Assembly: GCA_028871345.1 (NCBI GenBank)
Contig: JAGWNK010000012.1
Location: forward strand, 1-64,000
Direction of reading: 5' to 3'
DNA length: 64,000 nucleotides
DNA from: Alphaproteobacteria bacterium
Lineage (GTDB): Bacteria; Pseudomonadota; Alphaproteobacteria; Micropepsales; Micropepsaceae
Position numbers and translations under genes: made by a program
Notes under the pieces: generated by a model
Told to the model about the DNA's origin: nothing
The model's database searches: none
What the model saw: the letters and a program-made list of their open reading frames with translations, nothing else
Shown here: positions 7,600-9,928 of the stretch, in pieces
How the letters are laid out: each line of letters starts with the position of its first letter
Numbering within the stretch: position 1 is the first letter of the stretch

Positions 7600-8010
7600 A
7601 TGTCCGCACAGCGCGGCAGAGACCTGTTGATCAAGATCGGCGACGGCGCCACGCCGGAAGCCTTCACCACCGTCGCGGGCCTGCGGGCCACGACGCTCGC
7701 CTTCAACGCCACCAATGTCGACATCACCAATGCCGACTCCGCCGACCAGTGGCGCGAGCTGCTGGCCGCGGGTGTCAAGTCCGCCGCCATCTCGGGTTCC
7801 GGCGTGTTCAAGGATGCGGCAAGCGACGCGGCTCTGCGCGCCGCCTTCTTCGCCCAGGCCATATGCAACTGGCAGATCGTCATCCCCGATTTCGGCACGG
7901 TGTCGGGGCCGTTCAAGCTCGCCTCGCTGCAATACGAAGGCCCTTACGACGGCGAGGTGAAGATCGCGCTGTCGCTCGCCTCCGCCGGCGCGCTGTCGTT
8001 CGCGGCGTAG
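7600..8010 (+). CDS. TP901-1-family major tail (tube) protein (GTA gp9)
   Basis: 136 residues. RGRDLLIKIGDG near the N-terminus, TTLAFNATNVDITNADSADQW, and the closing GPFKLASLQYEGPYDGEVKIALSLASAG match the TP901-1 major tail protein family, which polymerises into the tail tube. The start has one of the best Shine-Dalgarno sequences in the cluster (AAGGAGACCACC before ATG), fitting a protein needed in many copies. Confidence 0.92.
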   Translation: MSAQRGRDLLIKIGDGATPEAFTTVAGLRATTLAFNATNVDITNADSADQWRELLAAGVKSAAISGSGVFKDAASDAALRAAFFAQAICNWQIVIPDFGTVSGPFKLASLQYEGPYDGEVKIALSLASAGALSFAA

Positions 8011-8054
8011 CGTCCGCCGATGACCCCGCCCCTGTGGAATGACAGCGGCGATGA

Positions 8055-8118
8055 CCCCTCAAGGGGAGGTACGAAAGTCCGCTGGGCGAAGTTCGACCTT
8101 CCTTCAAGGAAAGCGTGA
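8055..8118 (+). repeat. GTA intergenic repeat, short copy upstream of gp10
   Basis: CCCCTCAAGGGGAGG at the left, GTCCGCTGGGCGAAGTTCGACC in the middle and CTTCCTTCAAGGAAAG at the right. It is shorter and more degenerate than the copy at 5966. It ends 17 bases before the gp10 ATG. Confidence 0.7.
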
Positions 8119-8135
8119 AGAAATGAGGATTTCCC

Positions 8136-8483
8136 ATGTCCAATGCCATCCGCGGTGAAGTCGAGCTCCGCGCCAACGCCAAGACCTATCGCTTGCTGTT
8201 GACCCTGGGCGCCCTGGCCGAGATCCAGGCGGGGCTCGCCCTCGACAATTTCGAAGAGCTGCCCAGGCGGCTGAAGCAGAAGGGCGCGGCAGCCCTGACG
8301 CTCGTCGTGGGCGCCCTGATGCGCGGCGCCGGTGAGCCGTTGCAGCCCGACGAGGTGCTGAAGCTGGACTGCACGCTCGGCACGCTGGTCGCCGCCGTTC
8401 GCGAGGCCTTCGAGCGCGGCGGTCTTCCGTGCACGGAGGGCAGTGGCCCTTTCGCTGGGACGCCTGGCTCGCCTACGGCCTAG
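8136..8483 (+). CDS. GTA gp10 tail assembly chaperone (upstream frame)
   Basis: 115 residues. The N-terminus SNAIRGEVELRANAKTYRLL, then LGALAEIQAGLALDNFEEL, and LTLVVGALMRGAGEPL, are typical of the GTA gp10/GTA_TAM family, thought to coat or guide the tape measure during tail assembly as lambda gpG does. The frame ends at 8483 after a region (from about residue 107) with no family-like character. At residues 105-106 (CCT TTC) lies a slippery heptamer, and a -1 shift there enters the downstream chaperone frame, giving a 163-residue fusion as in lambda G/GT. Confidence 0.88.
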   Translation: MSNAIRGEVELRANAKTYRLLLTLGALAEIQAGLALDNFEELPRRLKQKGAAALTLVVGALMRGAGEPLQPDEVLKLDCTLGTLVAAVREAFERGGLPCTEGSGPFAGTPGSPTA

Positions 8484-8626
8484 GCGTGCTGCGCCTGCCG
8501 CCGGAATCCTTCTGGCGGCTGTCGCTCGTCGAATGGCGGGCGCTATTGCCGCCTCGCGCGCCGTCTCTGGCGCGCCGCGGCCTGGAAGACCTGATGCAAC
8601 GCTATCCGGATGGACGCCATGCCTGA
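8429..8626 (+). CDS. GTA gp10.1 tail assembly chaperone (downstream frame)
   Basis: About 60 residues in the -1 frame relative to gp10: FRWDAWLAYGLGVLRLPPES followed by FWRLSLVEWRALL and a basic C-terminus. This is the small TIGR02216/Phage_TAC_6-like protein that follows gp10 in GTAs. A GTG at 8429 could start it independently but has no convincing Shine-Dalgarno. Expression by -1 slippage at 8447-8453 is an alternative and would fuse it to the first 106 residues of gp10. Recognisable family content begins only after the slip site. Confidence 0.8.
   Translation: MHGGQWPFRWDAWLAYGLGVLRLPPESFWRLSLVEWRALLPPRAPSLARRGLEDLMQRYPDGRHA
8447..8453 (+). promoter_or_regulatory. Candidate programmed -1 frameshift site CCCTTTC
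   Basis: The heptamer fits X XXY YYZ exactly: in the gp10 frame it reads C CCT TTC. After a one-base slip both tRNAs can re-pair on CCC and TTT. The -1 frame then reads CGC TGG GAC GCC, which is the downstream chaperone's own frame and stays open to 8626. Seen directly; actual slippage is inferred by analogy to lambda G/GT-type tail chaperones. Confidence 0.7.
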
Positions 8627-9158
8627 TCCCATCGACAGCCTGGGCGCCGGCCTCGACGAGGCGGCCCAGGCGCTTTCCGAATTCGTCAACGGGCCCGTCG
8701 CCTCGGCCGCGCGCTCCATCGACGAGGCGGTGACGCGTTCGTTCCGCTCGGTCGAATCCACCATCGCCAGGGCCGCGCTCTCCGGCAAGGCATCGATGGA
8801 CCAGCTCGTCGATTCCATCCTGCGCGACTTCGACCGCGTCGCCACCAGCCAGTTCATCGTCAAGCCGGTGGAGAGCGTCATCAATTCGCTGGCTGGCTCG
8901 CTGCTGTCGTCGCTGGTGCCGCTGGCGGGTGCGCGCGCCTCCGGCGGTCCGGTGTCGGCGGGGGCGGCGTATCTGGTGGGCGAGGAGGGCCCCGAACTCT
9001 TCGTGCCGCAGACCGGCGGCGCCATCGCGCCGTTCGCCGCGCGCCCCTCGATCACCCTCAACGTCACGGCGCGCGACGCCCAGAGCTTCCTCAAGTCCGA
9101 GACCCAGCTCGCCGCCATGCTGTCGCGCGCCCTGGCGCGCGGGCAAAGGAACTTGTGA
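8619..9158 (+). CDS. Short tail tape measure protein (GTA gp11)
   Basis: About 179 residues; sets tail length and probably helps DNA exit. It has helical, heptad-like sequence (AAQALSEFVNGPVASAARSI, VTRSFRSVESTIARAAL), a hydrophobic centre (VINSLAGSLLSSLVPLAGA), and the lambda-family C-terminal motif ARASGGPVSAGAAYLVGEEG then PELFVPQTGG. Very short compared with phage tape measures, as in known GTAs. The ATG at 8619 overlaps the end of the chaperone frame; ATG 8610 in the same frame is an alternative. Confidence 0.85.
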   Translation: MPDPIDSLGAGLDEAAQALSEFVNGPVASAARSIDEAVTRSFRSVESTIARAALSGKASMDQLVDSILRDFDRVATSQFIVKPVESVINSLAGSLLSSLVPLAGARASGGPVSAGAAYLVGEEGPELFVPQTGGAIAPFAARPSITLNVTARDAQSFLKSETQLAAMLSRALARGQRNL

Positions 9159-9784: not shown

Positions 9785-9790
9785 TGTCCC

Positions 9791-9920
9791 CCTCCCTCTT
9801 GTGGGGAGGTCGAAAAGTGCGAAGCGCTTTTCGGGTGGGGGTACGCCAAATTCTTTCCCCCCCGGGAATTTCTCGCTTCGCTCAAAATTCTCCGGCCTCC
9901 TCGCAAGGGGGCGGCAAGGA
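9791..9920 (+). repeat. GTA intergenic repeat, copy upstream of gp13
   Basis: CCTCCCTCTTGTGGGGAGG (9791-9809), AAAAGTGCGAAGCGCTTTT, a GGGGGTACGCC...CCCCCC section, AGCGAAGCGAGAAATTC-like pieces, and CCTCCTCGCAAGGGGGCGGCAAGGA at the right end. The left arm is nearly identical to 10854-10872 inside gp14. It ends 8 bases before the gp13 ATG and provides its AAGGA ribosome-binding sequence. Confidence 0.8.
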
Positions 9921-9928
9921 AACAGCCC

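Follow-up and report, generated by a model that had tools for sequence, protein, structure and literature searches.

Among the closest described systems to the locus studied here is the G/GT pair of tail assembly chaperones of phage lambda, the mechanism of which has been reviewed (PMC5009743), and a paper on R. capsulatus phages notes the frameshift that is usual in phage chaperones (PMC8601537). For the gene transfer agent (GTA) RcGTA, g10 and the small gene that follows it (g10.1, there written g10.5) were described as tail chaperones 1 and 2 with no mention of a frameshift (PMC11409702), and the cryo-EM paper mentions neither gene (PMC7296036). A frameshift in RcGTA-type elements was likewise unreported in the open-access papers that we searched. 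Within that scope, the literature agrees with the earlier note on this DNA, which had taken the arrangement proposed below to be undescribed for GTA gp10/gp10.1.

We analysed a stretch of 64,000 nucleotides (the window), in which a collinear series of terminase, portal, protease, capsid, connector, tail and GTA_TIM genes, all with Pfam matches, forms a head-tail cluster of the RcGTA type. Matches in the cluster include GTA_TIM (E 5.4e-136) and Rcc01698_C (E 3.5e-29), and DUF2460, hub and NlpC/P60 proteins are also encoded. Two open reading frames, gp10 and gp10.1, lie between the tail tube (g9) and tape measure genes, which is the order of a lambda-type cassette, and the gene order around them is presumably that of RcGTA. 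As judged from its genes alone, the cluster would thus specify an RcGTA-type gene transfer agent, with gp10 and gp10.1 as its putative two-part tail assembly chaperone. The features of the junction are as follows.

7600..8010, forward strand: tail tube protein (g9) gene, upstream of gp10 (PF06199, E 1.3e-43)
8136..8483, forward strand: gp10, RcGTA g10-type tail assembly chaperone 1, zero-frame product of 115 aa (PF11836, Phage_TAC_11, E 7.6e-9)
8429..8431, forward strand: GTG, first possible gp10.1 start, non-conserved, 18 nt before the heptamer
8435..8440, forward strand: GGAGGG, Shine-Dalgarno-like stretch and probable stimulator, seen in the sequence 6 nt before the heptamer
8447..8453, forward strand: slippery heptamer C CCT TTC, seen in the sequence and kept in 65 loci
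8447..8626, forward strand: gp10.1 frame from slip to stop (PF09550, Phage_TAC_6, E 2.3e-16; TIGR02216, the rcc01693 family, E 6.5e-14, just below the model cut-off)
8610..9158, forward strand: tape measure protein gene, next in order and overlapping gp10.1 (PF09718, E 1.6e-9; NF058675 RcGTA_tape, E 6.5e-11, below the cut-off)

The tape measure protein is short, with 182 aa. The AlphaFold model of gp10, a confident one (pLDDT 84), consists of two strands and several helices and appears to resemble viral models, several of them named tail assembly chaperone, the best match (E 9.7e-4) being to an unnamed one; a PDB search with the same model gave no significant match. An interspersed repeat may be present in the intergenic gaps at 8011-8135 and 9785-9928 of the window, which have in common GGGGAGGT as well as stretches resembling CGAAA.

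We then examined the two reading frames at the junction. The gp10 frame runs from the ATG at 8136 to the stop codon at 8481-8483 and reads GGC CCT TTC at CCCTTTC, so that the heptamer stands in phase as X XXY YYZ, as the earlier note had stated. The -1 frame reads CCC TTT CGC TGG and is that of gp10.1, which stays open to its stop codon at 8624-8626; the proposed product, gp10(1-106) plus 57 residues, would be 163 aa long, as computed. Indeed, the PF09550 match in gp10.1 begins at residue 8, exactly where the slip falls, which bears out the claim that family-like sequence starts right after it. Taken together with the comparative evidence below, we consider it highly probable (roughly 0.88) that gp10 and gp10.1 are joined by a conserved programmed -1 frameshift at C CCT TTC, giving the predicted 163-residue fusion. 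In-phase X_XXY_YYZ heptamers occur 7 times in the 4,657 codon positions of 15 cluster genes, CCCTTTN only once, at 8447, and about 0.03 heptamers of any type are expected by chance in the gp10/gp10.1 overlap. A comparison across relatives is a stronger test than such a count.

Homologues were gathered via gp10.1 (PF09550) or the downstream DUF2460 gene, and the heptamer was never a selection criterion. The main set comprised 143 dereplicated genomic loci, 43 of which carry CCCTTTN where the conserved gp10.1 domain begins, and the wider set reached 65 heptamer loci once phage and viral contigs (IMG/VR) were added; the loci are related, and these counts do not equal independent events. PF09550 also matched in Corynebacterium glutamicum, outside the alphaproteobacteria, among the control genomes. 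At two loci (L138 and L142, the latter from Parvibaculum sedimenti), the DUF2460 gene is present, the gp10.1 profile gave no match and the upstream genes look different. No single fused gp10-gp10.1 reading frame turned up in a general reading-frame scan of the loci, which was not designed for fusions.

In the window's genus, CCCTTTN was found in 27/27 genomes with a match, and in the other genera of its family in none of seven matches. Two more families in the genome sample also carry it. Further carriers were Chthonobacter rhizosphaerae (Hyphomicrobiales, Pleomorphomonadaceae), a Hyphomicrobiaceae MAG, about 20 IMG/VR contigs and one phage record, MW202613. When CCCTTTN was mapped as a label on a poorly resolved tree, it required about seven changes and was strongly clustered. 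In the phage record (ctOK67, MW202613.1), CCCTTTA stands at the junction, and the annotation lets the second chaperone begin at a start codon that overlaps the stop of the first one, omitting the start of the conserved domain.

We next compared the heptamer with the presence of a gp10.1 start within 45 nt. Among the 143 loci, 42 have the heptamer only, 92 the start only, 8 neither and just one, the window, both (Fisher p 7e-27, with related loci counted as independent); in this set, the heptamer and a nearby gp10.1 start are almost mutually exclusive. Forty-five of the 65 heptamer loci have no ATG, GTG or TTG anywhere upstream in the open gp10.1 frame, 63/65 have no start codon within 60 nt upstream, and CTG within 60 nt upstream of the heptamer was found in 0/65. 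Furthermore, in 18/65 the gp10.1 frame is closed by a stop codon no more than 30 nt before the heptamer, with just one or two codons between the two at several loci (L012, L024, L046 and L084), and in 43/43 gp10 terminates only after the heptamer. A conserved heptamer in the overlap and a second frame with no start of its own, the GTG at 8429 in the window aside, are what a lambda-type cassette calls for, and the lambda G/GT-like organisation put forward in the earlier note is supported by this conservation and start-codon exclusion. The check that it set, whether the heptamer is kept at the same point in other GTA clusters, came out in favour of the slip in the genus and in the 65 loci, although the heptamer is not universal in GTAs. 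By the note, homologous clusters with no heptamer, or with a well-supported independent gp10.1 start and RBS, and no fusion peptide, would refute the slip; the heptamer loci nearly all lack such a start, and the non-heptamer lineages do have one.

The codons at the slip were also constrained, as judged against controls from the same ORFs. In the gp10.1 frame, the slip reads CCC TTT in 43/43 heptamer loci, even though these average ~64% GC. This uniformity is partly true by definition, the group having been chosen by its heptamer. As controls within this ORF, an invariant Pro is encoded by CCC in 13/39 and an invariant Phe by TTT in 6/39 cases (Fisher 5e-12 and 4e-17). Pro-Phe occupies the slip position in just 2/141 loci without the heptamer, indicating that the protein family does not demand it. 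The informative facts are the recurrence of the heptamer in many loci and the rarity of Pro-Phe without it. The gp10 frame has CCT at the slip, a codon that encodes 8/114 prolines elsewhere in gp10. The last base of the heptamer is C in 33, T in 22, G in 9 and A in 1 of the 65 loci; C or T would let tRNA-Phe re-pair on UUU, and G or A would not.

These observations also bear on other routes to gp10.1. The protein might be made separately, either with the GTG at 8429 as its start or through translational coupling, with the heptamer incidental, as the presence of this GTG, which the earlier note had not mentioned, in the gp10.1 frame of the window and the ATG or GTG overlapping the gp10 stop at most Rhodobacterales loci would allow. 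However, the GTG is the sole possible start within 45 nt upstream among the 43 dereplicated genomic heptamer loci, GGAGGG is placed after it rather than before it, and neither the general lack of upstream starts noted above nor the fixed codon choice of the heptamer fits such a route. The GTG is thus probably not the main route to gp10.1, and we regard separate synthesis as improbable. Slightly less probable still is termination-reinitiation, in which ribosomes ending gp10 would restart at an overlapping start to yield an N-truncated gp10.1. In 16/65 heptamer loci, a start codon that overlaps the gp10 stop falls at residue 6-7 counted from the slip, and re-initiation of a shortened gp10.1 could occur there, but most heptamer loci, the window included, have no such start, and its use would delete the conserved P-F-x-W start and leave the fixed CCC TTT unexplained. 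A mixed mRNA pool, produced by slippage of the RNA polymerase on the run of C or T, is conceivable as a general possibility but very improbable here, since runs of three C or three T are short for this process and the strict in-frame phase and the Shine-Dalgarno-like stretch fit ribosomal slipping.

For the programmed -1 frameshift, we then looked for stimulatory elements. Frameshift sites of the dnaX type are stimulated by an internal Shine-Dalgarno sequence. A five-base Shine-Dalgarno match starting 9-24 nt before the heptamer was found in 25/43 loci (41/65 overall), compared with a mean of 2.4/43 for stretches of equal size in the rest of gp10; loci without the heptamer have such a match at this position in 13/100 cases. 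As for a downstream stem or pseudoknot, folding of 33-90 nt downstream of the heptamer yielded no stronger structure than in non-heptamer loci. The upstream stretch is therefore the likely helper, better supported than a downstream structure, and RBS-like frameshift stimulators have been described (PMC10885494).

The sequences show where the site lies and in which frame, that relatives keep it and that they lack an alternative start. From this we infer that the slip occurs, how often it does so, what GGAGGG contributes and how the chaperones act, as follows. The majority of ribosomes would complete gp10, and a minority would move one base backwards on C CCT TTC, with tRNA-Pro moving from CCU to CCC and tRNA-Phe from UUC to UUU, presumably aided by the upstream GGAGGG. 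The slipped ribosomes would make the 163-residue gp10-gp10.1 fusion. If this fusion works as lambda gpG/gpGT does, its gp10 part may bind the tape measure protein, and recruitment of the tail tube protein may fall to its gp10.1 part.

The heptamer site is not universal in GTAs. Rhodobacterales mostly have a gp10.1 ATG or GTG overlapping the gp10 stop (ATGA or GTGA) and no heptamer. One other family carries GGGAAAG, the lambda heptamer, in 3/3 genomes; relative to the conserved domain, it stands at -24 nt (with further copies), at -18 nt and at -27 nt. GGGAAAG occurs in phase near the gp10 end as a Pro-Gly-Lys motif at five loci (L048, L257, L258, L040 and L173); in two further lineages it stands by the gp10 stop, directly before it in L040 and one codon before it in L173. 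At two other loci, AAACCCT in gp10 phase lies one codon before the gp10 stop (L045) or directly before it (L176), possibly as a third heptamer type, and at another (L035), a CTG overlapping the gp10 stop (CTGA) is the sole candidate start found near the gp10.1 domain upstream. It seems likely that one domesticated GTA family has two exchangeable modes for the same cassette, a gpG/gpGT-like -1 frameshift (CCCTTTN or GGGAAAG) in some lineages versus a separate gene with an overlapping start in Rhodobacterales, so that domestication could bring gain or loss of the fusion.

With this finding, the regulated ribosomal slip of infectious phages would enter host-maintained gene transfer agents, which are domesticated phage particles, and in many alphaproteobacteria the second chaperone is probably overlooked or cut short by automated annotation. 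The fused and separate chaperones also offer a natural comparison for asking why both G and GT are, as a rule, required to build a tail.

Finally, we compared the locus with the known systems. It resembles the bacterial dnaX-type site in the internal Shine-Dalgarno-like stretch upstream of the heptamer, but no downstream hairpin signal was found here, and the slip would yield a longer rather than a shorter product. The tail chaperone pair of RcGTA, g10 and its small neighbour, has the same gene order and the same families PF11836 and PF09550, although the two are described there as separate genes. The likeness to lambda G/GT extends to a pair of frames that overlap and are flanked by the tail tube and tape measure genes, to an X XXY YYZ heptamer late in the first frame with a -1 fusion (predicted here), and to GGGAAAG itself in some GTA relatives. 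In contrast to lambda, the heptamer here is CCCTTTN instead of GGGAAAG, the second part (57 aa) and the tape measure protein (182 aa) are very short, a Shine-Dalgarno-like element lies upstream, and the cassette belongs to a GTA cluster rather than to an infectious phage. The known kind would thus be the lambda G/GT cassette, and what appears to be new, within the open-access papers searched, is such a cassette in the gp10/gp10.1 pair of an RcGTA-type gene transfer agent.
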